Below are positions 9,908-61,397 of a stretch of DNA of 64,000 nucleotides, one piece after another. The stretch covers positions 24,686 to 88,685 of the forward strand of contig LGRX02027229.1 of assembly GCA_001247695.2 (NCBI GenBank), in the 5' to 3' direction. Both the position numbers and the translations under genes were made by a program. Every line of letters starts with the position of its first letter. The first letter of the stretch is position 1. This stretch comes from Cymbomonas tetramitiformis (lineage: Eukaryota; Chlorophyta; Pyramimonadophyceae; Pyramimonadales; Pyramimonadaceae). The notes below the pieces were generated by a model. The model saw only the letters and a program-made list of their open reading frames with translations. It made no database searches and was not told the origin of the DNA.

Positions 9908-12900
9908 ATGGCGTACTCCGCGCCCAAAGAACCGCACGGCGACGGTCGACGCGATGTTGCCAACGGCGCCTCCCGCGACTTTCCGAACTCAACGCAAAAA
10001 TTTGCTGACTACTTCGGCCAACCGTCGAAGCCGTACTTGCTCTCCCCTTACGATCAGTACGGTCGCGAAAACTTCGCGCTGCCCGAGGCCTACCTCGGCT
10101 ACTCTCCGTATATGACCGATGTCATGATCAACCTTATACGCGAGGAAGACCTGTGGCCCACCAAGCTGCTGCCCTACCGGGAGACGAAGGACACCTCCAC
10201 CATCACCTGGAACGAGTACCACTTCGACCGACATTTGCTGGGTCCGGTGCCCGAAGAGGGCGTCAGCCGTCTCGTCAGCCAGCGCATGAGCGAGCGCAGG
10301 GACCACTACACCCGCTACGGCCTGGCCATGATCCTGGAACACGGCTTCATGAACACCGAAAAAGGCCGGATGTGTTACACCAACAACCTGCAGCAGATTC
10401 GCAACGCGGTTCTGGAGACGGTGTACCTGGGGGTGCTAGAGTCTCTGCTGCACTGCAAGTCGTACGACGAGGTGTGGAACGAGCGCTGCGGCACCGTCAT
10501 GACCGCTCAAACGGCGCGCAGAGCCCTAGCGACCGAGGTGGAGGACTGGGCCACCGTGCAGAAGACCGAGCACGGTTGGGATCTCCTGGACAGCCGCTGC
10601 AAGCGCATCATGCGAGCCCGCGGCGTCGAGCCGGACAGCTGGATCGTTCCCGACGGCATATAGCACTACGTCACACAGGTGCGACGCGAAAATTACGTCT
10701 ACATGTACGCCGGCCCCGAAGGGCCGCAGAACTTCAAGTCCGGGCTGAACGGTAAATCCCCGAACGTGGTGGACAACCGCAACGACTGCACCATCTACGA
10801 GACCAAATCGTTTGAGATGCCCGATCTCCCGGAACCGGTGGACGTCACCAAGCGGCAGCGCGCCATCGGCGAGTTCTTCCTGATGCAGGACGAGGAGTCC
10901 AGCATGGATCGCCACATGCGCGCGGCCACCGAGCGCTGCATGAGCGCGCAGCGCTCCATCGCCATCTACGACGAGGATGTGGACACCTTTGTGGAGGTCC
11001 GTTTGATCGACGCGTTCGAACACGACGCGCTGATTCAAAACGATGGCTTTACAGCGGTGGGGGACGAATGCGAAGGGTACGGCGACGATCCGAATGATAA
11101 GTACGAGGGGGATACGAGTTTTGGAGATCTGCCGCACAACGAAAAAAATAAGAATCACATGCCCCCTCTTGAGGATGGCACGATCGAGCGTTTCGCGAGC
11201 ACGTATTTCGACGGCATCACCGAGAACGACCTGATCGTGAAGATGCACGCCAACGTACCCAGCTACCTCAAACAAATGGATTACGTAACTGACATGGGCA
11301 GCATTTTAAACGTATCTTCCATGACAGAAATTTTCAAGGATTCATCGTCGGTCGACAGTGCAATTACCACCCACACCGATGCCTACGCGGCGTGGCTGTA
11401 CGCGCATACGATCGCCGAGCATTCAGTTCGGGCGTACGCGTGTGACGAGCTTTTCTTTCGGTACACAGAATCCGTGAAAAGGTACGACGAATGCATGCCG
11501 CTGCCTCCCTGTCTATCCGACAAGATTGGCGTTGAGCAGACGATACTCGCGGTTTTGATTGCTATACGGCAAAACAACCCGATCTACTATTCCACGAAAT
11601 ACGAAAGCGATAGTATAAAAAATATTTACAAAGAATTTCACGATAAGGATGATGGTGGATCATTTGATGGAACAGGCATGTACCTAACAGGTTATAAGAT
11701 AACCAAACGTATTTACGAGTCGATGAGCATCGTGGGCGCCGACAGCAAATATACGTCGCGTACGATGAAGGTCAACCCGATCGGATACAACAACTACGCG
11801 GGCGTTAAACTTTTATCCAAGTGCGACGGACACGAATGCTATCAACCCAACGAATGTAAAGCGTTGATCGAGGCTTTCGACACGCTGTGCGATGGCATGG
11901 ACGTCTGTTTTGAATTTACCAAGGATGTGAAGCAGTCGCTTTTTGGTTTATGCATACTAAAGTGTACATACGCGGGGAACCTCACCGTCAATACCAAAAA
12001 CCCTGAAAGTAATGAAGACAACAGCGCTTACGCACTCACCAGACACGCCATTAACGATTTTAACAGCGGTGAAGATATGCGGCTTCGTATATTCGCTCAG
12101 TCCCAATCAACCGAGAACGGTAATACATCTATGAATGTACCCGCAAACGATACAGACAATGTACTACGTGAATTGATGACGGATCCCGATTTAAAATTCG
12201 CCTACTGTAAACATCGCAGTGATGTCTGTATTGAAACTTCAGACGAGTCAGAATATTTCAACCCGCAAGTGCACAAATTTATTTGTGGGGAAGTTCAAAT
12301 TTTACCACCAGAAACGCGAAATTACATAAAAAAATCTTACAAATTGAAAACAAGCGATCTTACAGACGAAAATATTCGTGATCTTTTGCATTTACCGTTT
12401 CTGATTTCTGTACTAAATTCAAAATCTTATAATTCGATTGAAGAAGAAGAACACATGGCACAATTTAAACATCTTTTAATTGCGGCGTATAAAATCTCAT
12501 TGTATATGCCTATTGCGGATTTACATCATTTGAGACAGCTAGTCCATGAAATACCATTAAAATCCAATTCTCATTGGTACGACGGCGAAATTGATATCAG
12601 TGCTGTTCTAAAGCCATCAATTGCTGCGCACGACTTTCTAAAAATGTTTGTTAATATGTGCTGCTGCGGTTATTACGTTAAAAAAATTACACCGAACACG
12701 GCTGCAAGTACTTTACGATCAAGAATACGTACAATCACGGAGCAAATCCAAAGCTTGTTGAATCGATCCGTGGGTGAATATAATTTATACGTGCACACGT
12801 GTGAAGGAGATGAATTATGCTTTGTGATATCTGATAAAGGGTTTACAAAAATTAAACCCCGGCAGGGTCTGATCATCAGCCCATTTAAGGCGCCGAGCAG

Positions 12901-14041
12901 CTTTAAAAATGTCATCATCGGCCTGACCGCACCAGAAAACGGCTTCTTTGCAAGAATCAAAAATACACATTTTGATACCGAAAAACGCGGCGTCCTCTTT
13001 GGATGGTTGAAGGCAAACAAGGATAGAATTAAAAATTGCAACACTCTAGACGTTGAGCACGACACGCTGGCGTTAATCTATCATCACGCTCACAACCCAT
13101 CTTCTTCGAGTGCCTCGCACACATTTTTGGGAATGCCGTCGGTGCAAATAAACGCAATGCCGACCGGCACGGAACAATTTTGGGTCACCCGCGCATTCTT
13201 GAGACGATTTAACGACAGCGTGCATAGTAAAAGGCCGCACGAGTACTTCATCTACACGCTGATGTGCATGCAAAAAACCGGTCCCAAATTTCTGCGAAAG
13301 GTGATTAACGAGAACAAGCTCTTCCCATTCGGGTATCTGTTGCTGCGGCCGTACCAGACGTACGAGACCTGCACCGCGATCCTTATGAAGGGGGGCGCCG
13401 AGACGGGCGAGACATTGATCGGGTACTACAACTTTCAATTGGCGGACAACGTGGTGCAGAAAATGCACTACGGCAACTTTACCATCTACGAAAAGTCGGT
13501 GGTGTATCGATCTCGAAACGTGCTGCTGCAGCCGGACATTATGGTCACCAATTATTTGGGCGGTGGAGGGAGCAAATTTTACAACGACAAGCGGAGAGAG
13601 GATGCCGTCACGTTCAGCACGGCCGTCCCGTCGCTCTACGCCTGTCTGATAGGCTACAACGAACAGATAAAGGACAATCCGTTGGACGTCACAGGCAAGT
13701 TTGCGTCACATACAGGGCTTCAGAATATTAAAGAGACTATGTACAGCACCGCGGGTTATTACAAAGATAAATACCAATTTGAGCATGCGAATGCCCCGTC
13801 CAGCGACGAGCCCTATTTTGAGCAGCCCGTGCAGAAGAACACGTTGTGTTTTCAGGGGCATCAGGCGCGGTACAATTATCAGACCGGCGGCCTCGATCGC
13901 GTTACGCTCAACACCGGTCATTGGGGCGAGCGCGTGTATCCGGGCTGCGGAAAGGTGCGCAAGGGGCTCAGCAAATACTTGGAGCCGGTCACATATTCGC
14001 ACATGTACCACGGGGGCGGTATGATGATGGGCTCTATGTAA
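9908..14041 (+). CDS. Putative HK97-fold major capsid protein with one in-frame TAG
   Basis: Two same-frame open segments (251 codons, then over 1,120) are separated by a single TAG at 10661-10663. Together they make about 1,377 codons, close to the size of herpesvirus major capsid proteins. The N-terminal segment has features I associate with the mirusvirus/herpesvirus HK97 capsid core: a TDVMINLI helix near residue 75, a TITWNEYHFDRHLL beta segment near 100, then GVSRLVSQRMSERRDHYTRYG and EHGFMNT. The following NLQQIRNAVLETVYLGVLESLL helix reads like the spine helix. The long remainder would form tower-like insertions. The C-terminus is Gly/Met-rich. The middle (about 11.6-13.1 kb) is AT-richer than the two ends. 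Whether TAG is read through, is a mutation (CAG to TAG would be one transition) or a sequencing error cannot be told here. Family call moderate; continuity of the frame certain. Confidence 0.65.
10661..10663 (+). other. In-frame TAG interrupting the capsid gene
   Basis: Codon 252 of the frame opened at 9908. The frame is open without a shift on both sides, and the next codons are CAC TAC GTC ACA CAG. No other stop occurs before 14039. Confidence 0.9.
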
Positions 14042-14090
14042 GCCGCGAGTATACATAGCCCTAAACCTTTAGCCAAAAAGCGCCGAAGAC

Positions 14091-14450
14091 ATGAAACGCG
14101 ACATCCAGATCTACGCCATTATGGCCTCCGTGGCGAATCTGATCGCGTGCCTAGTGACTTTGGCGCTCTACTACGCGGGGGCAAACGCCCTTGCGATGTA
14201 CCGCTCCTTATGCGCCGCGACTGTGGTGCTCACGCTCTACACCTGCAGCGCGCACGACTGTCGATTTAAAACATCCGTGTACCGCAGCACCCTTATCGTC
14301 AACGCTTTCAGCATCATGTCGGGCACCGCCGGACTGCTCATGGCGCGCACCAAACGGACGTCGCTGCACTATATTGCGTTGGCGAACGTGGTATTCGGGG
14401 TTATCATACTATTTTTGCAAGTGCGACAATACAAAATTAGCACCGCGTAA
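14091..14450 (+). CDS. Four-helix membrane protein, 119 aa
   Basis: Four hydrophobic segments (about residues 7-28, 33-50, 65-85 and 92-112) fill most of the protein, with short polar loops. The start is 50 bases after the capsid gene on the same strand, so the two may be co-transcribed. No family is recognised; a virion or host membrane protein is likely. Confidence 0.65.
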   Translation: MKRDIQIYAIMASVANLIACLVTLALYYAGANALAMYRSLCAATVVLTLYTCSAHDCRFKTSVYRSTLIVNAFSIMSGTAGLLMARTKRTSLHYIALANVVFGVIILFLQVRQYKISTA

Positions 14451-14483
14451 AATAAGTGCATATTTTTTTTAATCCAAGAGTGC

Positions 14484-14819
14484 TCATATGCAGTCCGCTA
14501 GGTTTATCACGAGCAAAGGTCCCGCGATCGTATTTCCGCACACGTGTTCGCCGTAAACAGAGGTGGCCTCGACGTTCACGGGAAGCTGCTTGTTCTGCGC
14601 GTCCTCATCCATCCACAGGACGAGCTCGTCCTCTCTCCATTCGTCATCGTCCATAACGGGTACCATCTGCACCATGGCGCAACATCCGAGCAAAAAACGC
14701 AATCGCTCCAGGTCGAAGGGACCGTCCACCAAACGCGGTGCACCTTGCGCAAGTTGCAGTATGCCCTTTCCGAGAGGTGGCGCGTCGTACAGTTCGCAAT
14801 TGTTGACGTTCGAAATCAT
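14484..14819 (-). CDS. DUF3846-like protein, 111 aa
   Basis: The layout matches small DUF3846-type proteins: a central LERLRFLLGCC helix, a run of acidic residues, LPVNVEATSVYG, then a C-terminal GNTIAGPLLVIN strand. Such proteins occur in phages and algal viruses and have no known biochemical role. Convergent with the membrane protein gene to its left (33-base gap). Family assignment comes from pattern memory only. Confidence 0.55.
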   Translation of the reverse strand: MISNVNNCELYDAPPLGKGILQLAQGAPRLVDGPFDLERLRFLLGCCAMVQMVPVMDDDEWREDELVLWMDEDAQNKQLPVNVEATSVYGEHVCGNTIAGPLLVINLADCI

Positions 14820-14898
14820 CGCGGCATGACCGCACGGTACACTATGATTGATCTTGCAACAGCGTTGTTTAATTTTTTCGTAAAATGCGCACCTTAAG

Positions 14899-14906
14899 TA
14901 TAAATA
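14899..14906 (+). promoter_or_regulatory. TATAAATA promoter box
   Basis: TATAAATA ends 30 bases before the ATG at 14937. Confidence 0.65.
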
Positions 14907-14936
14907 TATTTTGTTATGTCTAATCTATCGTGAAAT

Positions 14937-15620
14937 ATGAATTTTTTAAACGTGACCGCTCAAAAAGCGGACCCGAAACCAAACGTGAAATACGGGCAAG
15001 GACGTCCCATTCCCGACGCGCTCAAAGCGAAAAGTGCGGCGCAGCCGCAGTCCGAAAATTTGCACACCGCCGCGCAAACGCACGTTTTTGTGGTGTGCTC
15101 CACGACCGCGTACGCGATGTGCGCGGGATCGGTTCTGCGATTGTGCAACGATACGCTCGACGCGGACGATTTGGACACTCCGGATAGACGGTTCACTCTC
15201 CTGCTCGCGGCGGACGATGGAAATTTTGAAATGCACGCTCCCGATATGAAGTTATTCTTTCAGGAGTATAAGCAATTCGCGCGCACCAAAAACTTGGTGC
15301 GCTTGAATAACGTGGCAACGCACAATCGACTCGCCATCGAACTGTCCAAAATGATTGGGCAAATCGTTCACAAAGAGACGTCCGACATGTACGCCGTCAT
15401 GTGGCTTACGCCGGATCTCGCAACAATCGAACCCTACGTCAAGTTTCTGCGCGGCATTTGCGGCAAAGCCGAAGACCGCGTGCGTGTGCACAGCATAAGC
15501 ATCGAACAAAAGGCTGTGCGCCAGCCCAGGGATCACCCACACGCCAGGGTCGCCCGCACCGTGGATCGGGATTCTCTCAACGGCACGTTCGCCAAAACCA
15601 AAATTACCGAACTAATTTAA
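14937..15620 (+). CDS. Unknown 227-aa protein
   Basis: Soluble protein with a polar, basic N-terminus (about residues 1-45) and then a mixed alpha/beta core starting at HVFVVCSTTAYAM. A well-placed TATAAATA box supports the ATG. No motif is recognised. Its 3' end overlaps a possible small minus-strand gene by 9 bases. Confidence 0.7.
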   Translation: MNFLNVTAQKADPKPNVKYGQGRPIPDALKAKSAAQPQSENLHTAAQTHVFVVCSTTAYAMCAGSVLRLCNDTLDADDLDTPDRRFTLLLAADDGNFEMHAPDMKLFFQEYKQFARTKNLVRLNNVATHNRLAIELSKMIGQIVHKETSDMYAVMWLTPDLATIEPYVKFLRGICGKAEDRVRVHSISIEQKAVRQPRDHPHARVARTVDRDSLNGTFAKTKITELI

Positions 15621-15884
15621 TTTGTTACAAATTTTCGAATGTTCCTCATCGGAGGTGCGTTTTTTATTCTTTTCGACGACTACGTGGGTAGTGGAGGAGC
15701 AGGAGCTGCACAGCGCATCCCAGTTTACGAAACGGTGCCAGTCGCGACAGTCCTCGTTCGACTGCACCGAACAGTTGCTCTCCGCCGTGTCCGTCGTGCC
15801 ACACGATTCAGTTATGTCCCCTGCGACAGTCAGGATGCGCGAGTTTCGTATTGTGGTGTTGGCGCGCGTCAGGAGGATCATCAT
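15612..15884 (-). CDS. Possible small Cys-rich protein, 90 aa
   Basis: The ATG overlaps the stop of the upstream membrane-protein gene as ATGA (15881-15884), a compact arrangement. The protein has about seven Cys between residues 28 and 65 and a basic tail, but no signal peptide. Plus-strand frames of similar length cover the same bases, so the coding strand is uncertain. Confidence 0.35.
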   Translation of the reverse strand: MMILLTRANTTIRNSRILTVAGDITESCGTTDTAESNCSVQSNEDCRDWHRFVNWDALCSSCSSTTHVVVEKNKKRTSDEEHSKICNKLN

Positions 15885-16745
15885 ACACGTAATATGCGGG
15901 TGTTGTACGTCGTCATGCGCTGCGTATTGCTGGGACGGTAGTCCGGTACCAACGAATCCTCATCGGCGGCGTATTGTTTCTCGGTGAGAAATTTGTGCGT
16001 CATGCACGCTGTGACGATGATAGTGGCGGTGGTTTGTGCAACCAAAAACCAAAAGTTGGAAAACATGAAGAAGAGGTTCACCGCGCTAGACAGAGATAGA
16101 AAGACGGTGTGCAGCATCATGGTCAGCTGTATGCGAGTCGTGGAGTCGAGATCCGATCGCGGCACGTGCGGCGAGTTTAAATAATTGATCTGCCACGCGG
16201 ATATCTTGCGACGAACGTACACGTTCACCGCAGTCAGTAGAGCGGTACCCATAAGAGCTACCAGCGCTTTGTAAATGTTATCGATGACGTACGTGTCGTA
16301 GAAGCGCACGTCGTCGGAGTAAAGATCGAAGTAGTAGGACGGCAAGAACTCGGCAAAGAACATCACAAGAAATACCGACGCGAATAGACCGACGGACAAC
16401 ACAGCCGTTACCGTTGGCGTGCGCTGCGTCAACAGGTCGAAATCGTTTGCGCGTTCCTTTGAAGGAGGTCTTGCGGGCGCGTGAGTGTACGCGGCGCATG
16501 GTTTTTGACTAGGCGCTAGAGCGTAGTACACCGTATTGGGGAGATTCGGATCGTTTGCGTTTGTTCTGCGATGAGACGCTATCTGGCTGCGCGCGGACGT
16601 TATTTTCATACCAATACCCGTACAAACGATCTTCGCCTATGTGTGGTTGGTCGTAAGTTTTGTAATTACGCATGTGGCGCGCAAGTAAACTGGCGTGCTC
16701 GGAAGCGCTGCGATCAGAGTGTCCCACATCGAAGTTGTATTGCAT
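15881..16745 (-). CDS. Four-helix membrane protein, apparently split by a +1 frameshift
   Basis: The main frame (stop at 15881) carries four hydrophobic segments in its C-terminal part. Its only nearby ATG, at 16609, gives a low-complexity N-terminus and has no TATA. A second minus-strand frame (ATG at 16745, stop at 16509) overlaps it by 100 bases. That frame reads as a natural protein start rich in Tyr, Asn and Asp, ends in KRKRSESP, and has a TATA run 45 bases upstream. A +1 shift near the CCCC run at about 16535-16540 would join them into one product of roughly 290 residues. Indel, programmed shift and two overlapping genes are all possible. Confidence 0.5.
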
Positions 16746-16791
16746 GGCGTGAAGCGTTTTGCATAATTCGCGGTTGTAAGGCCGCACGAAG

Positions 16792-16803
16792 TATATATAT
16801 ATA
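16792..16803. promoter_or_regulatory. Bidirectional TATATATATATA promoter
   Basis: Self-complementary TA run between divergent genes: 46 bases to the minus-strand ATG at 16745 and 40 bases to the plus-strand ATG at 16844. Confidence 0.6.
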
Positions 16804-16843
16804 CTTACCCACGTCGCGGTTTGTACGCTGCGGTTGTAGAACT

Positions 16844-19800
16844 ATGCGCGTCAGGTACAACACACGTTATACACCCCAATACCGCGATTGTCGCATCGGG
16901 AAATCTGTGGATTGCAACGAGATCGTGCTCCACAGTACCACGGACGCGTCGCAATCGGAGAAAATCAAACCGCACGTTACGCCCGAATGGATTCAAAAGC
17001 TCAACACGCCCACCGCAAAGGCGGTCGGCATGCTGGTGCTGCTCTTTCTGGTGTTGACGGTAAGCATCTGCGTCATCGTGCTGTTGGCCGTCGACGAAAC
17101 GCACGATCGACAGGACACCAACGTCTTCAACAACGCGCACTCCACGCCGAATGTGCAGAACACGCACACCACGATCATCGAGACGCCGAGCGCAGTCACC
17201 GGCTCGCCCGTGACGGTCGACGCGCAACGGGTCCAAGTGCACACAACCGTCCGATTTTCCAGTCTAAACTGGTCGGAGTACAGCACGGTAACCGCTCAGA
17301 GCGCGCTCCTTACGAGCGTGCAAGCGTCTTTGCGGTACGCGGACGCCCGTTACGAAAATTTCGTCGCGCACAACGTTTACCCCGGCAGCGTCGTTGTGGA
17401 GTTCAGTTTTGTGCTTCCAAACTTGGACGAGCACGCGGTGCAAACCATCAAAACGCTGCGCGACTACCCCAGCGCGATTTTTGTGGAGCGGGCAGACGAC
17501 CCAGGCACGATCGCTTACGGCGAGAGCACGACCGTGCAGATCAGCACGCTTAGCGTTCGCGCACGCGAGACCGCGCATCCAACCCTGCCTGCACGCCTTG
17601 ATAAACCCTTCCCCCACGAGCATCGCGTCACGTTGCAGCCGGTTGCAACGCCGCACACCACAAGGCCGACAACCCATCCACCGAGCGCGCATCCCACGAC
17701 CGAATCGCCCACCCGCTCCCCCGAAACATCAACTCCCACGACGCCACCGACCGCCGCCCCGCTCACCCTCGTGCCCACCCTCGCGCCGACCACTCGATCA
17801 CCGAGCGCGTCGCCCATTACCGGCACGCCCACCAAAACTCCAACAACGATGCGACCAACGATGGCGCCGACGGCACCACCGACCGCATCACCGTCAACTC
17901 TCAACCCCTCCGCTGGCCCCACCGGTTCACCGCACACCGCAGCGCCCATCACCGACGCTCCCACCACACGCGCGCCTACGACCGCAACTCCGACGCGCAA
18001 TCCCACCACGGACGCTCCCACGGCGTCGCCGACGACCGGCGCACCGACCACCGCACCGACTGCATCGCCGATCACGCGATCGCCTATTACCGAGCACCCA
18101 AGCGCAAGCCCGACGTCCGACGCACCGACCGGCGGTCCCACGCGTTCACCACAGACGGCATGGCCCAGCGACGCGCCAACTTCAAAAACGCCGACCCGGA
18201 GTCCGACGTCCATGGCACCGACCGTGACGACAATCGGTCCTACTGCAGCGCCGCACACTCAAAATCCAACAACAAAGCACCCGAGCGCCGCACCCACGAC
18301 GACCGGGCCGACTGCGTCGCCGCAGAGCGACTTTCCGACGCGTCAACCCACCGCGGCGCCGCAAACGCGGTCGCCCGTCACCATGGGGCCAAGCTCTGCG
18401 CCGACGCGCACACCCACCACCACGAATCCTACCGCCGCGCCGACCTCTTCGCCATCCACCGTCTCACCGACGAGAAGCCCCACGATACCGCCCACAAACG
18501 CGCCACAGACCACTCCCCCGTCGCAGTCGCCGACATCGCCGCACCCCACGGTCGCACCCACGACTTCGCCCCACACGACGGAGCCCACCAGCGTCGCACC
18601 GACTGTCGCCCCGACCGATTCGCCGATGACCAACGCGCCCAGCACGCAACCGCCCTCGACCGCCGCACCCACCAAAACCCCGACCACCGTAAGCCCCATC
18701 ACGGCGACACCCAGCAGCCTAAATCCTACCGCATCACCCGCGACCCACGCTCCCACCACGCAGCCGCCGTCAACTGCGGCGCCCACAAAAGCCCCTGCGA
18801 CGAGCGCGCCCACGACCGTTCATCCCAGTACATTTAATCCGACCCAAAATCCGACGACGTCGATGCCGACAACCTCGAATCCCACAACTCGCGTACCCAC
18901 ACGGAGCCCCGCAACCGCAACCCCCAGCACGGATTCGCCTCTAACGACGGCGCCAACGACTGCCCCGACGTCGCGCACACCGACCACCAACCCACCCACC
19001 ACCGTCGCACCCACGTCGCCTCCCGAAACTGGCGCACCATCCACCAAATCGCCCACCACCATCCCGCCCACGAAGACTCCAACAACCGTGTCGCCAAGCA
19101 CGTTGTCGCCATCCACCGGTACTCCGACGATGACGCCGACGTCCGCGACGCCGACGACGCGCTCGCCCACTTCAACCAATCCCACGACGAGTCCGTATTC
19201 CGCAGCACCGACGACCCAACATCCATCCACGGACGCGCCAAACACCCAATCCCCAACCGTAGCGCCCACGTCGTACACGCCCACCACCGTTTCGCCCATC
19301 ACGACGAATCCGACCAAAGCACCCTCGACTCCGACGCCTACCACAAGGGCACCGAGCGTGGCACCCACGACCGACGCACCCGCGACCGCCACACCCTCGA
19401 CTTCCGTCCCAACAAGAACACCGACCACTCAAGCGCCCATCACGAAGACGCCCACCCGCGCTCCAACAACCGATGCCCCGCTTACGATGGCACCGACTAC
19501 TGAAACGCCCACGACCAGCCCGTTCACCACAGAGCCCACCACGGACGCCCCTTCAAACGCTCCTACGTCTCGGACGCCGACCACTGTCGCTCCATCTACA
19601 ATCGCACCCACGACGCATGAACCTACTTTCGCACCCACGACTCAGGTTCCAACCACCAAATCGCCCATCACAACTGCGCCTACCACCGCAGGACCCACAT
19701 CGTCTCCAACCACCATGTCGCCGTTGACCAACGCGCCCACCATATCACCAATTACCGAGGCACCCATCACTACGGCGCCCACCACCAAAACGCCCGTCAC

Positions 19801-50847: not shown

Positions 50848-50893
50848 TGACGCAAAAAAAAAATCCGCCCATTGATCTTGCGGGGTGCGCCGC

Positions 50894-51808: not shown

Positions 51809-51852
51809 AAAATGTGAGATGGTCGGAACACCGTAGTCGTACACTTACTACT
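51719..51852. repeat. Perfect 25-bp inverted repeat with nested hairpin at module junction
   Basis: Arms 51719-51743 and 51828-51852 are exact reverse complements. The 84-base spacer holds a second hairpin, GAGGCGC-AA-GCGCCTC (51771-51786), with imperfect pairing between. The whole could fold into one long stem. It overlaps the 3' end of the previous gene and lies where base composition changes. Confidence 0.9.
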
Positions 51853-51892
51853 GAAACAAAGGGAGGACGAAGTGAGAAGCGGACTAAACGCA

Positions 51893-51968
51893 AAAAAGGG
51901 GTGAATTGGTTACAATTCCACATTATCTTTAAGATATATGCATATTATAACCATTTCCCCCCAAAAAA
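51893..51968. repeat. PLV palindrome, copy 1
   Basis: GGGG, then GGTTACAA, a 30-base centre with CTTTAAGATATA, then TTATAACC and a run of C. Lies just beyond the 3' end of the leftmost PLV gene and matches copies at 57738 and 61398. Confidence 0.75.
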
Positions 51969-52028
51969 GTTAGAAATTTCTTCTCATCTTGCGTCGAAAT
52001 TAATTGTTTAAAAATGTGGAATTGTCGA

Positions 52029-52682
52029 TTAAGCCTTTTTGAATTTCACCGTGTTGTCAGAACCAGATTCCAAATAGAACTGCCCAACGGCTGCCGCACC
52101 TTCTCCTACAGGCATATTTGCGGGATTTACAAACAACCCTTCCCCTATATACATATTTTTGGCAATTGAAGCGCTTCCAGCACTTCTTAAAGGATTGTTA
52201 TTTGCAGTTATATATTTATTAGTTGGATCGTCGTTATCATTCTCTACTGAAAGTTGTTGACAAAACCAACGACCGTCGACTCGCATCAACATAGGCAACG
52301 TTTTACTTATACCTGCCGATGGATTTGCTATGTTTTGATATGAAAAAATTATAGCGCTGTTATTCGTAACGATATCTGTGAGGCATTGAATGGCAGGTTT
52401 GTTTATATCATCCACGGCTTTTACGCGCATTTGTCCATTGCAATGAAGCACCCCCGTTGCCGAACTAGTGGGACCAATTTCTATTTTGCTAGAAGTAATG
52501 ATGTCATACGTACTTTGTAAAACTTGATTCAAAAATATTGTTTTGCTTGTTGTTGGTTGTAATGTATCTGCTTGTATTGCCCACAAACCATCACCACCAC
52601 CACCACTCGTTGGAGGTACCCCGCCGTTAAACGTCGTGCATTGTAAATTTCTGCAAACTAAATCTTTTCCAAAAGAAGCCAT
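52029..52682 (-). CDS. PLV fibre-like protein, short form, 217 aa
   Basis: The N-terminus MASFGKDLVCRNLQC matches that of the next gene (MSSFGKNAIFKTVQC), so both probably use it as a tail that docks in the capsid, as adenovirus fibre tails do. A Gly-rich stretch follows, then a beta-rich part with ASIAKNMYIGEGLFVN, a pattern common in trimeric phage and virus fibres. It lacks the long middle of its paralogue. Receptor binding is a likely but unproven role. Confidence 0.65.
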   Translation of the reverse strand: MASFGKDLVCRNLQCTTFNGGVPPTSGGGGDGLWAIQADTLQPTTSKTIFLNQVLQSTYDIITSSKIEIGPTSSATGVLHCNGQMRVKAVDDINKPAIQCLTDIVTNNSAIIFSYQNIANPSAGISKTLPMLMRVDGRWFCQQLSVENDNDDPTNKYITANNNPLRSAGSASIAKNMYIGEGLFVNPANMPVGEGAAAVGQFYLESGSDNTVKFKKA

Positions 52683-52769
52683 GTGTTATTACTATATGCA
52701 TAACATAAATATAAGCAAAAGGTAGATGATTTAATTATTCATACCAACAACGCTAAAGTGCAACGCGCG

Positions 52770-54737
52770 TTATGTGTTATAATTGGGATTGAGCCATACA
52801 AGCAAGCCCGAACCAGGTGTCGTTATAACCTTTGTCTCCATCGCTGTACCAATAACACCAACGTTGGTTGTTACTTGGGTGGAATCTACCTGTCCGTTTG
52901 TAGTGCATTTTAGAAGTTGCCCTTTTACATAAGACCCATCTAATGCTTTAACGGTTGTAAAACCTTTTGTACATACGAAGCACGAGTTCCCAATGGTACT
53001 ATTTTGAACACATATCCCTATTGGTGAGCAATTTTGATTTGCTTGTGTTGCAGTTGCCGAAAATATTTTGACCCCGTTCACATTTGTAGAGTTGTCATCA
53101 AATTGAAGGATGTCACCCGCGGCAATTGTTCCTCCAGTAGTATTTTCAAACGTATAGACTTCACCTGTGTGTGGGACCGCCGATATTGGTAGTGACGCTG
53201 CATATGCGCTAGAAATTGTTGTCAACGGTATTCCGGCTGTGGTGATTGATGCCGTCGGGGCTGTGTAACTAAAGTTTAAACTATTTGTAAGAATGACGCT
53301 TGTAGCGTCTAAATCCCCCGTAAGATTAATGTTAGAACCACTATTGCCGACTGCAAGAACTTGTGCAAGGGATCCTACACTACCAGAAGCGACTGTTCCG
53401 CTTCGTATTTCTCCACTTAATGCATCGTAATACAGTTGCAAAGTTTCGGTTGCTATATCAGGTGAAGCTCGTATTGGCTTAACCGTAAATGAATCGGGAC
53501 TGCTTTGGTCTAAAGCGGCTCCAGTTCCATTAATGATTATTCTATTTGAAACGTTGTCACTTTGCCTATTGGTATTAAAACCAGCATAACTACCTAAAAA
53601 TGTGCAATTATTCCCCGCTGAATATCCACCACTTTCTCTTCCGATAGCTACAACGTTATTGACTGAAGCGCCATTAAAGTTACAAGCATCGTCGCCAATC
53701 GCAACCGAAAACGACGGTGCTGTGTTATAACATGCTCCTGAACCTATAGCAATGGTGTCTTCACTTGTGGCAGAGTTTGTAGTCATTGCATTGCGCCCGA
53801 TAGCGATCGAGCGTTGACCTATGTAGTCGCAGTTTGTAAACCCTTGAGTGTTTTCTCCTATACTAATTTTGCCAAGCCCTCCTGTACCCGATTCCACCCG
53901 AAAGTTTGTTCCCTTTATGCTATCTTGCAAAATTGTAAAATCGCCAGAACCGCTAAATGCCACATCTGGAACGGTGCTCGTTGCACCACGGGTGGTTACG
54001 TCTTGGAGAGTAGACGTATCGGGTTGCGAAGGCAAGTTGGTAAGTGAGGAACCATCGCCGATAAAACCTGTAGCAGTTATGGTGTCGGTTGTTATAGCAC
54101 CCCGAGTAGTCACGTCTTGAAGAGTGGATGTATCGGGTTGTAAAGGCAAATTGGTCAGTGAGGAGCCATCGCCTATAAATGAATTTGCCGTTATATCTGC
54201 GGTTGTAGTAGCACCCAATTGACACACGCCATTTAAATCTTGCGCACCGCCACCACCTCCCGGAACATTAACTAATCCTGAACCATCCCCACTTAAAGTG
54301 TATCCCGCACCAACCACAAAATTACCATTGCAAAGCACGCCCGAGCCATCAAGATTCATCGTAAGTTGACTCATATTAAGCTCCGAGGTGCCATCTTCCC
54401 CTATAGACAATCGATCTACATCTCCCGTTGCTTCTTTTGATGTTATAACAAAATTTTGGTCAGTCTCGTCAAGCTTAAGTTCAAATTTAGTCGTCGAGAT
54501 TGGATTGTTGAGAACAAAGTCATTGATTGCGATGCCTGAATGGATTTTTAATGAACCATCAGTCAGCAATGACATTTGCTCACGTTCGTTTGTAGGATCT
54601 TTAGTATCAATAAATTTGATATCATTTTGGTATTTAATGTCGCTAGCCATGTGTAATGTTTCTAACGGGTTGCTAACAGAGCCCAATGATTCACATTGGA
54701 CTGTTTTGAATATTGCATTTTTGCCAAAACTGGACAT
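52770..54737 (-). CDS. PLV fibre-like protein, long form, 655 aa
   Basis: ATG at 54737 puts the shared tail motif (SSFGKN) at the N-terminus. At about 150-235 there are repeats of the GDGSSLTNLP type seen in trimeric phage tail fibres. At about 300-400, SIAIGRNAM, TIAIGSGA, SVAIGDDA, VAIGRESG and FLGSYAG repeats match the left-handed beta-roll of YadA-like heads. The C-terminal part is a Thr/Gly-rich beta domain. This is a virion spike, probably trimeric, and the likely host-recognition protein of the PLV module. Confidence 0.75.
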   Translation of the reverse strand: MSSFGKNAIFKTVQCESLGSVSNPLETLHMASDIKYQNDIKFIDTKDPTNEREQMSLLTDGSLKIHSGIAINDFVLNNPISTTKFELKLDETDQNFVITSKEATGDVDRLSIGEDGTSELNMSQLTMNLDGSGVLCNGNFVVGAGYTLSGDGSGLVNVPGGGGGAQDLNGVCQLGATTTADITANSFIGDGSSLTNLPLQPDTSTLQDVTTRGAITTDTITATGFIGDGSSLTNLPSQPDTSTLQDVTTRGATSTVPDVAFSGSGDFTILQDSIKGTNFRVESGTGGLGKISIGENTQGFTNCDYIGQRSIAIGRNAMTTNSATSEDTIAIGSGACYNTAPSFSVAIGDDACNFNGASVNNVVAIGRESGGYSAGNNCTFLGSYAGFNTNRQSDNVSNRIIINGTGAALDQSSPDSFTVKPIRASPDIATETLQLYYDALSGEIRSGTVASGSVGSLAQVLAVGNSGSNINLTGDLDATSVILTNSLNFSYTAPTASITTAGIPLTTISSAYAASLPISAVPHTGEVYTFENTTGGTIAAGDILQFDDNSTNVNGVKIFSATATQANQNCSPIGICVQNSTIGNSCFVCTKGFTTVKALDGSYVKGQLLKCTTNGQVDSTQVTTNVGVIGTAMETKVITTPGSGLLVWLNPNYNT

Positions 54738-54760
54738 AAATATGTGTGTATACAATAGAG

Positions 54761-55072
54761 TTAATAAAAAAACGTGCCAGCGATGGGCGGTAACGGCGTG
54801 TTTATGGGATGTTCCGGAAAGTATCCAATAATATTAATGGCATTTACCTTATCATCTCGTCCGAGCAGTGTCGGTTTGTATCCATATAATGGATTTACAT
54901 TACTTATTTTTGCTGGTGGTTGTGTGATATCGTTTATCGTCTTACATGGCAGTTGTTGCATAAAAGGGCTACGAGCGCCGCTCATTTGTATCATACACAT
55001 TGGTTGTTGAATTGTATTGTTACCAATTGGTAAGCCTAAAGATGTTGAATATAAACCGGGTTGTTGTGACAT
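54761..55072 (-). CDS. Small Pro-rich PLV protein, 103 aa
   Basis: Lies between the major capsid gene (44-base gap) and the long fibre gene (23-base gap), all on the minus strand. Pro, Gln and Ile rich, without membrane segment. Position suggests a small virion component or fibre-associated protein; no family recognised. Confidence 0.55.
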   Translation of the reverse strand: MSQQPGLYSTSLGLPIGNNTIQQPMCMIQMSGARSPFMQQLPCKTINDITQPPAKISNVNPLYGYKPTLLGRDDKVNAINIIGYFPEHPINTPLPPIAGTFFY

Positions 55073-55116
55073 AAAAGTATTCTATATATTATTGCACCTA
55101 AAAAATAGTGTGTTGC

Positions 55117-56454
55117 TTATATAACGACCTCAATCATTCTACCTTGACCGATTCTTAATATGCTAGTGCATGCAGAAACGACAAACACTTCGTTAAGTTT
55201 TAGTTCATCTTGTGTTGCATCTATTCCAACGGAAGTTTGAAAATACATACTTGTATTCAATCCACGACTATCCAATCCTGACATGCTTCTTACTCCCATC
55301 TCATTGGGCATATTTAGTCGTACCATAGCTGTAAAGAAGTGATTGTACCAATCGAGCAAGCTATTGATTTTACATCCAGGTCGCACTGAATATTGGTCGG
55401 CTTTTGAAACACACAACGTGTTGAAAAATCCTATCGCGTCGTTGCGATAATTTGGGATATAAAGATTATTGATATTAAATTGTCCGCTACCAAGTCGTCC
55501 TGCTTTGAAATTAAAATATGACGGAGTATAACTTGGTCCTATAATATCTGTGTATTCTATCAACCCTTCGTTTTTGTCTCGATAATCTTGTTTACGTTGA
55601 ACAGCGTATATTTCGTCAATGGATTGAGCGCTTAACGAAAATCGTGTCGATTTATCCATCGTATTATGGGACTCGGTGAATGTAAAATAGTTTTTAAACG
55701 GTATTTGTAACATGCCATCGCTTTTTAATTTTGATTCAATGGCAGAGTCGTACACGCCCGTAGAAAACGTGATGGTTTCAACGGTAAAATATATATCTTT
55801 TAAAGAAAATGCACCTTTGTTTATAAGTTCAGTCTGTGCTTTTAAATCTAGTCCGTTACCTATTTTTTTTGAATCTTGAATTGCTCCAAGTACCTCTGGT
55901 CCGCTCAAATATATTCTCATTTGCATTGAAGGCAGTAATGAAGTATCTACATACGTTGGTTCACAGCTGCCGATAAACGACAACCAATTTTGTAATATAT
56001 AAGGATGATAATTTTGGTAATATTTGTCATCATTAACTTCAATTTCTTGATTTTGCAGCACTCGCTGATATGTAGAAGCTTTTGAAAACGTGGTGTAAAT
56101 GTTGTCTAAAATTGTGCTTACCGTATTATATTGTTGAAAGCCACTTTGCAATTGTATTCCTCCTGCGTAAAGTTCTACTCGCTGAATCAGCTTATCTAGT
56201 GCGTTTGGCAATTGAGTACGTAAAATATCGTTTGCAGCTGCATCATTGGTAAAAGCCAAATCGGCGTCATTAGCCCGAGCGGTACAATGCATTGCAATGC
56301 TCTTCATGTTTACCACTGAATTTACGGGCAAATTCAATGTTATTACGCCATTTTGTATTGCTTCAGTCATGTTTGTCGTTTCCAATCGGAAATAATTGGT
56401 TTGATAACCGCTCAATTTGTTGAGTGCGAACGCTAATGAAAACGGCAAGCTCAT
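55117..56454 (-). CDS. PLV major capsid protein, double jelly-roll, 445 aa
   Basis: ATG at 56454 (MSLPFSLAFALNK). The start KLSGYQTNYFRLE, the ITLNLPVNSVVNMKSIAMHC strand, the LDKLIQRVELYAGGIQLQSGFQQYN block and the following long helix are features I know from PLV/virophage major capsid proteins of the double jelly-roll fold. Somewhat shorter than many PLV capsid proteins. It is preceded, 36 bases upstream on the same strand, by the minor capsid gene, the usual PLV order. Confidence 0.75.
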   Translation of the reverse strand: MSLPFSLAFALNKLSGYQTNYFRLETTNMTEAIQNGVITLNLPVNSVVNMKSIAMHCTARANDADLAFTNDAAANDILRTQLPNALDKLIQRVELYAGGIQLQSGFQQYNTVSTILDNIYTTFSKASTYQRVLQNQEIEVNDDKYYQNYHPYILQNWLSFIGSCEPTYVDTSLLPSMQMRIYLSGPEVLGAIQDSKKIGNGLDLKAQTELINKGAFSLKDIYFTVETITFSTGVYDSAIESKLKSDGMLQIPFKNYFTFTESHNTMDKSTRFSLSAQSIDEIYAVQRKQDYRDKNEGLIEYTDIIGPSYTPSYFNFKAGRLGSGQFNINNLYIPNYRNDAIGFFNTLCVSKADQYSVRPGCKINSLLDWYNHFFTAMVRLNMPNEMGVRSMSGLDSRGLNTSMYFQTSVGIDATQDELKLNEVFVVSACTSILRIGQGRMIEVVI

Positions 56455-56490
56455 TGTGTATAATATATACAATTAAGACAATAAAATATT

Positions 56491-57480
56491 TTACATCGTA
56501 GCCAGTTCTTTAACCGCAATTGACATACTATAACTTATACTTCCATCTCGGGCTTGAGTTTTGCTTACGAGGGGAATTGGGCGTGCTTTGGAATCTGTAA
56601 GCGTAAATTTTAAGTCTGTTAATTGACTGCCTTGAATTTCGATTGCAAAATTATCATTTGGGTTAATGAAGTTGATAAAATTAGTTGTTAAATCTGATGG
56701 CAGCAAAATTTTGGCAAATATATCACTGGCTAACAATGAATTTGTCCTTACATTGATTCTGGATAAGTTGGTGCTTTCGGCATTATGTGTGGGTAAACTG
56801 CTTATACGCAAATACAACGCATCATTTGTTTGTAAATTTCCGGGAAAGAAGCTTGTAAAAACCTGATTTGGCGTAACCTCATTAAACATATCGGTTAACT
56901 CTTGTACGGTGGACAAGCCGGTGACATTTCTTACAACTCGACCCCCTAAAACTTGATCAATGTCATTATACTTACCTTCATCTTGGACACCCACGGATGA
57001 TGTTAATGCCGCTTGCAACGGACCAGTCGCGTCAAAATCTTCCTTGATGGAAAACGCCACAAATTTGATATCGGTTACGGCTGTTTTTAAGTCAATCTGA
57101 AAATGATTTTGGTAGTCTGCGGGGTCTCCGTTAAAGGTGACTTCCACCTGCCCTGTATACCCGAAATTTTCGGTCAACGTTTGGGTAATGGCAGTTGCCA
57201 AAAATGGAGCAATTTGGGACAACAATGTATAATTGCCCGGAGGGACGATAACGCTAAACAACTTGTTGTCCGATAGTCTTGCAATGTAAAACGTGTTGTT
57301 GAAGGAATTAATGGTATACCACGACTTCGCTGCACTAAACGTGTTCAGAATTAATCGCAATTTGCTTGAAGGATAATATCCAAACAATTGTGTCGGAATG
57401 CTGATGTCAATCTTACGACTATCCCCGCTTGCATTATTTTCACTATTTAGATATATTGTTCGTGTCGACAAAATGTTCAT
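56491..57480 (-). CDS. PLV minor capsid (penton-like) protein, 329 aa
   Basis: Opens with RTIYLNSENNASGDSRKIDISIP, a start typical of PLV and virophage minor capsid proteins, followed by FGYYPSSKLRLILN and GNYTLLSQIAPFL. Beta-rich throughout, consistent with a single jelly-roll. Its start overlaps the end of the 86-aa gene by 38 bases, and it lies next to the major capsid gene. Confidence 0.7.
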   Translation of the reverse strand: MNILSTRTIYLNSENNASGDSRKIDISIPTQLFGYYPSSKLRLILNTFSAAKSWYTINSFNNTFYIARLSDNKLFSVIVPPGNYTLLSQIAPFLATAITQTLTENFGYTGQVEVTFNGDPADYQNHFQIDLKTAVTDIKFVAFSIKEDFDATGPLQAALTSSVGVQDEGKYNDIDQVLGGRVVRNVTGLSTVQELTDMFNEVTPNQVFTSFFPGNLQTNDALYLRISSLPTHNAESTNLSRINVRTNSLLASDIFAKILLPSDLTTNFINFINPNDNFAIEIQGSQLTDLKFTLTDSKARPIPLVSKTQARDGSISYSMSIAVKELATM

Positions 57481-57703
57481 TATCTATAGTTATATAGTTT
57501 ACACATTTTATATCATCGATAGTTTCTCTTGGTTTGGCATCCCCTATTTCAACATTGCCTTTAGCATATTGGTCATAAAAGTCGGAGCGCTTTAAATAAT
57601 CATCGACAAGTAGCTCTATGTGGCATTGGGGAATGTCTTTAAAAAAGGTCGATGCCTCGTGAATCAACAAGTCGCGTTTTAACTTGTCTCCCTCGGAATT
57701 CAT
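57443..57703 (-). CDS. Small PLV protein, 86 aa
   Basis: Soluble, charged, mostly helical, starting MNSEGDKLKRD. First gene of the minus-strand capsid block after the palindrome at 57738, and overlapping the minor capsid gene by 38 bases, so it is probably translated from the same region. No function recognised. Confidence 0.55.
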   Translation of the reverse strand: MNSEGDKLKRDLLIHEASTFFKDIPQCHIELLVDDYLKRSDFYDQYAKGNVEIGDAKPRETIDDIKCVNYITIDNEHFVDTNNISK

Positions 57704-57737
57704 TTGTTATAATATGTATATTATTAAATTTTGTATG

Positions 57738-57811
57738 AAAAGGGGGGAAATGGTTATAAACGTGTATACTCTATAAGAAATACCAAATTGTAACCAAAAT
57801 CCCCCTTTTTT
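57738..57811. repeat. PLV palindrome, copy 2
   Basis: GGGGGGAAATGGTTATAA, a centre with CTCTATAAGAAATA, then TTGTAACCAAAATCCCCC. Located between the stop of the lipase gene (57810) and the start of the 86-aa gene. Confidence 0.75.
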
Positions 57812-59363
57812 ACTTCACTTTTTTGTGCCCTATAATAAAGGTAGGTTGTTTGTTCAATACACCGACGTGCTGCACGTTAGAAGTACCCGCCCCGACATAA
57901 ACCTTATATTTGACGTTTGGAAGGAAGGAGTGACTTCTATAGGCAGTATTTTCGTAAGTGATACCGGTTGTGGGCGCAAACAACGTTTTATCTTGTTTTA
58001 AGCGCCCGGTTGCTTTTCTTAATTTTTCGGTAATCGGGTCGTATACGGGGACTTTGTCGATACGTTTTTCAATAATAGGGTGCAATCCAAGATGTTTTCG
58101 TATGTAATTTTTTTCTGCGAATGACTCGGTGACACCCATGGTGGACATGAAATCGGTAAAATTGATCGGAGGTGTTTCAGATAATAACGCACCTTCTACT
58201 ACACCTTGAGTAGTTCTGAATATATGCTCATCATTAGTGCTAGCCGGTGCGTAGTATCCTAGGTACCCACCCAAGGCACCTCCTGTTAAGCCATTTGCAA
58301 GCCCATAACGTCCTCTTGCGACACTGACACGCTCCGTGCTCGGAGAATTGCGCGTATACATTTGTTCGACTGAATGCAACGCAACCAAATCATTTTCAGT
58401 GCCAGGTTTAGGTTGCACGTGTACTATAGTATACTTGCTTTCAGGGTGAGGGATTACACGACTCGGAAGGCTTACAAGGTCACCCTCCGTAGAGTAAACA
58501 GTTTGCTTCGCGGTAGGTTTTCCCGCGGGTTGCTGCATTGGGTTGATAGCGGGATTAAAGTGATGCCCTTCTACATTATTGGTTTCGGCTATAAAATTAC
58601 TTTGACCTCCTCCGTTAGAGTGTCCCGTGACTTTAATGTCATACACATTGCCGTACTTAACTTTAACATCGTTAAACGTTCGTTGAGCTTCATGGTATCT
58701 TTGTGAATTTCTTTGCCGTCCGATTGCCGTGAGTAAATTGACATACCAATCCTCTATGTTCTTTAATCTAGAAGGGGTTTTCATTAAAGTTTCCAATTTT
58801 CTGAATTCTGTGTCGCTGCCCCTATATGAGATAACGGCTTCTTTGGTTCCCGGGCTTACCAACACCGTACTATTTCGACCCGATAAAGTGGAATCGATAT
58901 GGAAGCCCTCGAGCTCTCGCATAAGCTCTTTCAACTTCGCTTTGTCGTCGTATGCATATGCATATGAGGCGTTTGCCAACAACGCAAATTTCTTTTGTAC
59001 GGGATTGTCTACGTCTATCACATTGTTGCCTAATAGTTTACTACTGACTTTAGATGGAAGTTTTACGACATCGGCTTCTATCGCTTGCAACAATTCTGCC
59101 GTTTGTTTCTTAACTAGGTCTTGTGGCTGATTTGTTGGATGAGAATGATTTTTTATGAAGGTGGATTCTATGGCATTAGATTTAGCGTTTGTTACGACTT
59201 CGCGGTTGCGATAATTTTGACGCAAAACTTTCCCCCCACTATTCACGGTTGGTGTGCGTGCATACTCCTCGACGTGTGCATGCTCGTCGGTACCAGAATT
59301 ATACTTCGGTCTATATTCTTTGCAAAATTTGGAATCGTTGGCAAAAATTCCACATGTAAACAT
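57810..59363 (-). CDS. PLV lipase-like protein, class 3 type, 517 aa
   Basis: The hydrolase core runs from about residue 125 to 330: VISYRGSD strand, nucleophile elbow GHSNGG with Ser249, probable acid Asp in EGDLVSLPS, and His in LVALHSV. Class-3-type lipases are frequent in PLVs and are thought to act on host membranes during entry or exit. The first 120 residues are polar and the C-terminal part (about 340-517) contains a Gly-rich hydrophobic stretch (GLTGGALGGYLGYYA) that could insert into a membrane. Domain call strong; role inferred. Confidence 0.75.
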   Translation of the reverse strand: MFTCGIFANDSKFCKEYRPKYNSGTDEHAHVEEYARTPTVNSGGKVLRQNYRNREVVTNAKSNAIESTFIKNHSHPTNQPQDLVKKQTAELLQAIEADVVKLPSKVSSKLLGNNVIDVDNPVQKKFALLANASYAYAYDDKAKLKELMRELEGFHIDSTLSGRNSTVLVSPGTKEAVISYRGSDTEFRKLETLMKTPSRLKNIEDWYVNLLTAIGRQRNSQRYHEAQRTFNDVKVKYGNVYDIKVTGHSNGGGQSNFIAETNNVEGHHFNPAINPMQQPAGKPTAKQTVYSTEGDLVSLPSRVIPHPESKYTIVHVQPKPGTENDLVALHSVEQMYTRNSPSTERVSVARGRYGLANGLTGGALGGYLGYYAPASTNDEHIFRTTQGVVEGALLSETPPINFTDFMSTMGVTESFAEKNYIRKHLGLHPIIEKRIDKVPVYDPITEKLRKATGRLKQDKTLFAPTTGITYENTAYRSHSFLPNVKYKVYVGAGTSNVQHVGVLNKQPTFIIGHKKVK

Positions 59364-59387
59364 ATCTATATGATGTATCGCACAAAA

Positions 59388-59999
59388 TTAACGGGGTACG
59401 GCTCGGCTGCGCAAAGCTGTCGTACCACTAGTCGAGACACTGCGGGCCATTTCACTAGGGGATAGATTTAACAAATTGGCTTGGTCCGCTAGTGGGAATT
59501 GGGATAAATCTGGAAACTGGGTTGGACCTTGATAATCTCCATCGCCAACACCGTCTGTATCTGATTTGGCGTCGTCAAAAGCAGGGTTTGAATCGAACGG
59601 TGACGCGATATCCTGTATGTAAGATGAAGGCGTACTACTCCTTGACGGTGGGGGTGTCGACATTTGCTGGAAAAAGTTGATATCGCCCACACGTGTTTGA
59701 TTTAATCGACTTAATGTTTGAGCAGTGTACGCGCTTTGCACCGCTGATACCCTATCAGGTTGACTATCGAATAATATGTCCTCGTTAATTCTTGCGACCA
59801 AACTATTCGGTTTGACTGGTGCATTCATAAGCGTCGCGTAAAACATGACATTATTTTTTGGCGGTGCAGTTATACTATATGATTTGCCAGCCAAATTTGA
59901 GTATTCTGAAAATATTTTATTGCTCGAGGAGGGATTTCTAAACCCCATTTTGTTCAAACAGTGAGTGCGTGTAGCTTCGTCGGTTAAAATACGTCTCAT
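59388..59999 (-). CDS. Unknown PLV protein, 203 aa
   Basis: Soluble protein with a Ser/Pro/Asp-rich disordered middle (about 110-165) and a short basic C-terminus. It is 24 bases upstream of the lipase gene on the same strand and diverges from the methyltransferase gene with a 31-base AT-rich gap. Could be a scaffold or minor virion protein; no family recognised. Confidence 0.6.
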   Translation of the reverse strand: MRRILTDEATRTHCLNKMGFRNPSSSNKIFSEYSNLAGKSYSITAPPKNNVMFYATLMNAPVKPNSLVARINEDILFDSQPDRVSAVQSAYTAQTLSRLNQTRVGDINFFQQMSTPPPSRSSTPSSYIQDIASPFDSNPAFDDAKSDTDGVGDGDYQGPTQFPDLSQFPLADQANLLNLSPSEMARSVSTSGTTALRSRAVPR

Positions 60000-60030
60000 T
60001 TATATTATTATAGACATATAATATTAATAG

Positions 60031-60753
60031 ATGGCTAACTTCGTTATGTATCATGATGATTGTTTTAACGTGCTCCCTAATATAGCCGACTCCAGTATAG
60101 ACCTTTGCATATGTGATTTGCCCTACCAACAAACTGCTTGCGAATGGGACACGTCAATAAATTTACAATTGTTGTGGAGTCATTTGAAACGAGTCGGGAA
60201 ACACAATTGTGCATACATTTTCATTTGCTCTACTCGGTTTGGGCACTCACTGATAACCAGTAACCCAAAGTGGTTTCGATACGACCTCGTATTTGAAAAA
60301 ACGGCGAGCCTAGGCTTTTATCATTGTAATCAAATGCCCCTCCGGTCACACGAAATGATTTACGTATTCTATAATAAATTGCCTACATACAATCCTCAAA
60401 AAACAGATGGTGAACCATATGGGACCCGGCAAGCGGGTCGTCATACAGAGTTGTATACTAAACACTCTAAACGTATCGACACAACCAATACTGACGGTAA
60501 ACGATTTCCACGCAGTGTCATAAAGTTCTCCAACAAGAATTATAAGTCTAAACACCCTGCAGCTAAACCTGTAGATTTACTGGAATGGTTGATTAAAACG
60601 TACTCCAATGAACACGAGAGAGTCCTTGACCCGACGATGGGTTCTGGATCCACCGCTAAAGCTTGCAAAAACACCCATCGAAACTTCGTCGGTATCGAAA
60701 ACAATGATAGCTTTTTTAAAATCGCTTATGAAGCTATCACCATGGGAAGGTGA
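60031..60753 (+). CDS. DNA N6-adenine/N4-cytosine methyltransferase, 240 aa
   Basis: Motif IV DLPY is at residues 29-32 and the AdoMet-binding motif DPTMGSGS is at 200-207, so the catalytic motif precedes the cofactor motif (beta-class order). KPVDLLEWLI ahead of DPTMGSG is typical of N6_N4_Mtase family members (PF01555). No restriction enzyme is next to it. It probably marks the element's own DNA. The only plus-strand gene in the PLV module. Confidence 0.85.
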   Translation: MANFVMYHDDCFNVLPNIADSSIDLCICDLPYQQTACEWDTSINLQLLWSHLKRVGKHNCAYIFICSTRFGHSLITSNPKWFRYDLVFEKTASLGFYHCNQMPLRSHEMIYVFYNKLPTYNPQKTDGEPYGTRQAGRHTELYTKHSKRIDTTNTDGKRFPRSVIKFSNKNYKSKHPAAKPVDLLEWLIKTYSNEHERVLDPTMGSGSTAKACKNTHRNFVGIENNDSFFKIAYEAITMGR

Positions 60754-61380
60754 TTAACATATGTCCCATATCAATTTGTTAGGTATGGCATATGCCTCTT
60801 TTAGCCGGGAAACCCCCGTAATGTTTGTGGTAGTTGGAAAATGACGACTGCGTTGAGCTGTCTTTAAATGTTTGTTATACGTTCTTTTTACATCGCAGGG
60901 CGTGGACTTGTTGCACATTTTCAGTTTTAAACCGGGTTTGTTTGTCCATATGTTTGTGGCTTTACGATACTCGAAACCATATCGACAATAACAACACGTG
61001 TGCTTGTAACGGGATAATTTCTGCATGAAAGCACGATGTTGCAATAATCCACCGTCCGAAGGATTCTCTATGTACCAATATGTTGGTTGATGATAATCGA
61101 TAATTTCTAGAGTGCGTATAACGATACTGTCCGCTAACGGCAAATTACGTCTTCCCCGTGTGTGCGCCTTGGAGTATTGTGTACAAGGAGGTGACGCCCA
61201 TATGATATCAAAGTATTTCGGAGGATATATTGTGTAATCCCAGCAAAGTATGTCGGCGGTGATATTTGCATTGAAGTTTGGGCAGATATCCAAGCTTGTA
61301 ATTTGCACACCAGTATCATATTTGTTGTGCAGTGCTTTGCCAACTGAACACGTACCGCTGAATAACTCTAACACTTTCAT
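60754..61380 (-). CDS. Cytosine-5 type DNA methyltransferase-like, 208 aa
   Basis: ATG at 61380 (MKVLELFSGTCSVG). Motif I is LELFSGTCSVGKAL, motif IV is ASPPCTQYS with catalytic Cys66, and motif VI is IENP at 104-107. At 208 residues it is short for a C5 methyltransferase and the target-recognition part is small, as in phage and PLV versions. It is tail to tail with the adenine methyltransferase with no base between the two stop codons (TGA at 60751, TAA at 60754 on the other strand). Confidence 0.8.
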   Translation of the reverse strand: MKVLELFSGTCSVGKALHNKYDTGVQITSLDICPNFNANITADILCWDYTIYPPKYFDIIWASPPCTQYSKAHTRGRRNLPLADSIVIRTLEIIDYHQPTYWYIENPSDGGLLQHRAFMQKLSRYKHTCCYCRYGFEYRKATNIWTNKPGLKLKMCNKSTPCDVKRTYNKHLKTAQRSRHFPTTTNITGVSRLKEAYAIPNKLIWDIC

Positions 61381-61397
61381 TACCATACTTAAAACAT

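Follow-up and report, generated by a model that had tools for sequence, protein, structure and literature searches.

Cymbomonas tetramitiformis is described as carrying many integrated polinton-like viruses (PLVs; PLVA, PLVB and PLV2) as well as mirus-like elements with HK97-type capsid genes, the heliorhodopsin-containing CHeCMEs (PMC10675990). According to the same report, one PLVB is nested in CtGEV, a giant endogenous nucleocytovirus (Algavirales) of this alga (PMC10675990). The locus presented here resembles this arrangement in that a PLV of ~23 kb lies inside a large endogenous DNA virus of the same alga. The recipients differ, however, as PLVB entered a nucleocytovirus whereas our recipient is a mirusvirus-like element of the HK97 lineage. 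No published report of a PLV inside a mirus-like element was found among the titles and abstracts of the open-licence literature, and such an insertion is unreported in the available portions of PMC10675990, PMC12768974, PMC12480563, PMC12721341, PMC12911909, PMC10132985, PMC12455990 and PMC12210455. For this alga, the nesting of a PLV in a giant-virus element is known already; nesting in a mirus-like element is seemingly new, as judged by the reports we found.

The window, i.e. the whole 64,000-nt stretch analysed, comprises the last 64,000 bases of the 88,685-base contig C18184 (C18184:24686-88685), and its right end is the contig end. Genome-wide searches covered the C. tetramitiformis assembly (851.7 Mb, 25,745 contigs). 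Positions 1..51718 belong to a mirusvirus-like, apparently endogenous element that continues to the left on the contig and resumes after the PLV on contig C23283. Its GC content exceeds 0.5 over most of its length but falls as low as 0.34 in places. With Mirusviricota as described in PMC10132985 it shares a herpesvirus-fold capsid, a trypsin-like protease, a histidine kinase and a putative ubiquitin ligase, and with the CHeCMEs as described in PMC10675990 an HK97-type capsid, an alpha/beta hydrolase, an exonuclease and a possible RING/ubiquitin-ligase gene. The corresponding features are an FHA-domain protein that may also carry a RING finger (3..554, minus strand, running off the window; FHA E 9e-11, RING below cut-off), an alpha/beta hydrolase (8553..9452, plus strand; Hydrolase_4, E 4e-10), a repeat-rich protein with a C-terminal trypsin-like protease (16571..23215, plus strand; Trypsin E 4.5e-21), a histidine kinase with receiver domain (23430..25226, minus strand) and an RNase T-type exonuclease (41155..41976, plus strand; E 1.3e-13). 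The terminase, portal, triplexes and maturation protease of Mirusviricota (PMC10132985) had no match among the window proteins scanned, which represent part of the element only, and heliorhodopsin had no Pfam match among them. In contrast to the window, a double jelly-roll gene could not be identified in the CHeCMEs, according to the available text of PMC10675990. The published CHeCME is flanked by retroelement genes (PMC10675990); here, an open-ended ORF at C18184:1-455 bears a by-eye resemblance to retrotransposon gag. In the repeat-rich ORF, which spans 2,214 codons, the repeats within window 17000-22000 recur at multiples of 57 nt, and GC skew as well as AT skew is strong there. On the minus strand, 47849-48919 resembles the herpesvirus UL92 family, with a score below threshold (E 0.015). 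The motif TATAAAT occurs 5′ of eight of the 27 mirus-like genes examined in window 1-51718, as expected from host-type nuclear transcription.

An HK97-type capsid gene in the window had been the first element of the original prediction, and it is real. The gene at 9902..14041 (plus strand) encodes the HK97-fold, herpesvirus-type major capsid protein that marks Mirusviricota and has relatives at further loci in the same genome. A protein search returned 37 proteins at E <= 1, among them an annotated C. tetramitiformis protein with 100% identity over the aligned part, other proteins from Cymbomonas and relatives from metagenomes. An in-frame TAG at 10661-10663 interrupts the gene, whose frame comprises 1125 codons here versus 1239-1441 in the other full-length genome matches, all 24 of which are longer. 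An intron at the stop was rejected: in the relatives the two parts adjoin except for the position of the stop codon itself. A sequencing error is a possible source of the TAG.

The second capsid lineage is that of the PLV, the left half of which occupies 51719..64000 and runs off the contig end, the whole PLV measuring 23.6 kb. Its double jelly-roll major capsid gene (55117..56472, minus strand), likewise predicted, is genuine and of the type that defines PLVs. A putative minor capsid protein (56491..57480, minus strand) is named by its position beside the major capsid gene and had no family match in Pfam or PHROGs. For both HK97 and double jelly-roll capsid proteins, single-sequence and alignment searches found no relatives among IMG/VR viral contigs, and sequence searches with both capsid alignments found no credible relative among solved structures. 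Further genes encode a class 3 lipase-like protein (57810..59363, minus strand; Lipase_3 E 2.6e-4, just below cut-off), an N6/N4 DNA methyltransferase (60031..60753, plus strand; E 3.6e-24) and a C5 cytosine DNA methyltransferase-like protein (60754..61386, minus strand; E 1.5e-5). An ORF at 62190..63314 (minus strand), which has no Pfam match, lies in DNA that recurs with identical spacing in further PLV copies. A long ORF (52770..54755, minus strand) weakly matches Phage_cement_2 (PF09956; E 0.035, below cut-off), a family that we take to be DUF2190. The window PLV resembles PLVA/PLVB by their described features, its DUF2190-type match being weak. These Gezel-like PLVs are given as 19.5-29.5 kb long with PolB or TVpol, a Tyr recombinase or DDE-type transposase and a DUF2190-like long ORF (PMC10675990). 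Among 14 PLV genes, TATAAAT did not rank in the top 15 motifs, a weak comparison, and a search for a promoter motif common to the mirus-like element and the PLV revealed none.

The left end of the PLV is defined by comparison with its relatives. Of 11 stretches taken from the vicinity of other PLV copies, eight show homology that begins at window 51714-51719; in the remaining three, the match of C22995 starts only deeper within the PLV, and none was obtained with C2985 and C9190. Flanks are visible in seven of the eight matching stretches, all unlike the flank in the window; the eighth stretch, that of C882, starts at the contig's first bases. A left terminal inverted repeat of about 300 bp (51719..52018) begins here with a tip hairpin, the 28-bp arms of which lie at 51719-51746 and 51825-51852. 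Genome-wide, 33 such repeat ends were found, and a reversed-pattern control gave 0. PLVs are described as 14-40 kb long with terminal inverted repeats, and both features apply here (about 300-bp repeats; repeat-to-repeat length of 23.6 kb at C2986 and C882, and 24.0 kb at C16578). The left and right repeats of the window PLV differ by 1 mismatch and a 3-nt gap over 300 positions according to BLAST and by 0 mismatches over 294 aligned positions in a global alignment, which yielded 5/296 at C2986 and, for contig pairs, 2/296 (C18769/C18768), 3/297 (C22995/C18185) and 3/295 (C13404/C19271). Because its two repeats carry the fewest mismatches, the window PLV looks like the youngest of the five copies compared at sequence level.

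Individual copies vary in structure. At C10669:136700-138200, the 134-bp tip hairpin has the opposite orientation to that in the other copies, reminiscent of the flip and flop states of viral DNA with hairpin ends. The copy at C22995:15800-17300 is longer close to its left end by ~0.8 kb of additional DNA, located where window 52187-52190 would lie. Three intergenic quasi-palindromes of ~75 bp (51886-51965, 57735-57812 and 61392-61470), 76-79% alike in both orientations, are possible transcription-end or start elements. They were rejected as element ends, as the copy comparison sets the PLV end at 51,719.

The right half of the PLV was found on C23283, the first 267 nt of which equal the last 267 nt of the window with 1 mismatch, and we infer that C18184 and C23283 join. 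Genes on C23283:1-11578 encode a CyRepA1-like protein (E 1.3e-24, yet below the family cut-off), a P-loop ATPase, PolB (DNA_pol_B_2, E 5.3e-49) and an rve integrase (E 5.3e-7; 30.3 bits, 2.3 below the Pfam cut-off of 32.6). The PLV ends at C23283:11578 with the right repeat, followed by AACGTG and the remainder of the interrupted ORF. Given the inferred join, the element possesses the replication gene, the integrase and the target duplication that characterise PLVs. A candidate for the A32-type packaging ATPase (ORF L073:3816-4721) has a P-loop and AAA-type matches that are all sub-threshold. The 12,282 bp of the visible half and C23283:268-11578 add up to 23.6 kb, the whole insertion being found on no single contig. 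As the final 259 nt of C12591 are also 100% identical to the last 259 nt of the window, more than one continuation is possible; C12591, with 10,423 bases, is shorter than the right half of the PLV. The terminal stretch 61480-64000 has 23 matches in the genome. It lies 5,008 nt from the capsid gene here and 5,008-5,009 nt from it in C22995, C18769, C2986 and C882, and this spacing, kept in four copies, identifies it as PLV DNA. Several contigs begin or stop within the homologous stretch, and these ends are assembly breaks in a repeat.

At the insertion point, a mirus-like gene is split. Its 5′ part of 278 codons (50885..51718, plus strand) continues as an open frame to 51808 into the PLV; ORF 50885-51808 as a whole gene was rejected, since its end is PLV sequence. 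CYMTET_6142 (P0074) is an uninterrupted homologue of 1301 residues, to which the left part aligns at residues 2-258 and the right part on C23283 at 261-1295. Both parts remain open frames, and the interrupted gene would have had a length of about 1,320 codons. A protein search in which the best 8,000 candidates were scored returned four matches, namely one unnamed EukProt entry and three named Cymbomonas proteins, one of the latter being the C23283 gene itself. The gene encodes a P-loop protein, and its P-loop and subsequent motifs are by eye presumably superfamily 3 helicase-like. Neither a Pfam or NCBIfam family nor a credible solved-structure relative was found for the product, its structure matches being designed helical proteins.

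The insertion is framed by the target site duplication AACGTG, with the left copy at 51713..51718 and the right copy at C23283:11579-11584. Among 24 stretches around PLV ends, only that of C23283 continues the ORF; the pairing rests on this ORF and the 6-mer was no part of the search, though both surfaced in one search. The left flank (50885-51718) recurs at C5043 with 91% identity over 582 nt, up to the exact insertion point, and at 19 more places at 72%, and a search with this flank for an allele lacking the PLV found no other copy above 91% (40 of 55 candidates scored). Of the 20 homologous loci, three (C5043, C16161 and C16993) were followed across the site, and all three have an uninterrupted ORF. 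Joined flanks (300+300 nt) align there without gaps, over 599 nt at 92.2%, 551 nt at 72.6% and 551 nt at 72.2%, respectively. The genome-wide repeat-end search found no PLV repeat end on the 20 contigs carrying left-flank homologues. Duplications at other copies are mixed. The complete copy at C2986 has GGCCTG at both ends, i.e. a 6-bp duplication, whereas the 6 bp differ (AGTGTG/AGTGCT) at C16578, the second copy whose two ends share a contig and whose flanks were read on either side. The contig pairs C18769/C18768, C22995/C18185 and C13404/C19271 have matching 6-mers, but were chosen by that match.

As the boundary is formed by an inverted repeat, the 6-bp duplications match, parts of one gene lie on both sides and homologous sites are uninterrupted, the predicted insertion of a PLV into a mirus-like genome is supported. 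The DNA of one capsid lineage sits inside that of the other, with a clean insertion scar and without fusion. The same observations are inconsistent with the alternatives raised in the original prediction. A GC shift close to the junction and a contig end inside a repeat might point to two endogenous elements side by side in a chromosome or to a false contig join. This is very unlikely in view of the target duplication, the two parts of one gene and the gapless uninterrupted sites; furthermore, the left junction lies inside one contig, at the hairpin tip of the PLV family's repeat. Even less credible is a hybrid virus genome using both capsid lineages: both capsid genes reside on one contig, but the PLV is a repeat-to-repeat unit present elsewhere (C2986 and C882) and mirus-like copies exist without it.

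How the PLV met the mirus-like element is a separate matter. We consider it likely that the 23.6-kb PLV inserted into a mirus-like element already resident in the nuclear genome, thereby splitting one gene. In this economical scenario, the mirusvirus-like element would first have become endogenous, and the PLV would recently have transposed into it inside the host nucleus, its own rve-type integrase presumably making a 6-bp staggered cut in the mirus-like gene. Virophages integrate into giant-virus genomes, and by analogy the PLV might instead have integrated, as a parasite of mirusviruses, into the genome of a mirusvirus that was replicating in a co-infected host, both being endogenised together. 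In support of such an encounter, the split gene was undecayed when it was hit, since neither part has lost its open frame. According to predictions, mirusviruses multiply in the nucleus (PMC12768974), and they are maintained as episomes or in integrated form (PMC12911909); in these settings a PLV could encounter them. Nevertheless, this course of events seems improbable. PolB and an integrase are encoded by the PLV itself, TATAAAT is not among its top motifs, a weak argument, and flank and PLV are spanned together at one place only (40 of 55 candidates scored). Moreover, a mirus-like flank was recognisable at only one of the 15 distinct PLV-family insertion sites examined, that of the window; the other 14 lack recognisable mirus-like sequence save for a 135-nt repeat at one of them. 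This survey comprised 20 flanks, each 312-1,022 nt long, which were assigned to one site when they had a flank or duplication in common; counting the window, 21 of the 33 repeat ends were covered. The window element and the C5043 stretch served as mirus-like reference, so that divergent mirus-like flanks could escape. Since these other sites lack a recognisable mirus-like flank, the nesting is explained by a PLV that transposed into an endogenous element already in place. The proposal that the insertion demonstrates a parasite relationship is therefore not supported: both elements have the appearance of endogenous DNA, and PLVs abound in this alga.

In summary, the nested locus, with a double jelly-roll PLV inside an HK97-lineage element, documents in DNA that representatives of two virion lineages came together in a single nucleus. 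Contigs broken within a repeat of this kind can be paired via the interrupted gene and the target duplication, and the locus is checkable by PCR, which bears on whether PLVs merely land in endogenous mirus-like DNA or interact with live mirusviruses. If the PLV were a virophage-like partner of mirusviruses, it would have entered a mirus genome as a provirus, splitting an apparent replication gene, and the relationship between PLVs or virophages and giant viruses would extend to the HK97 lineage.
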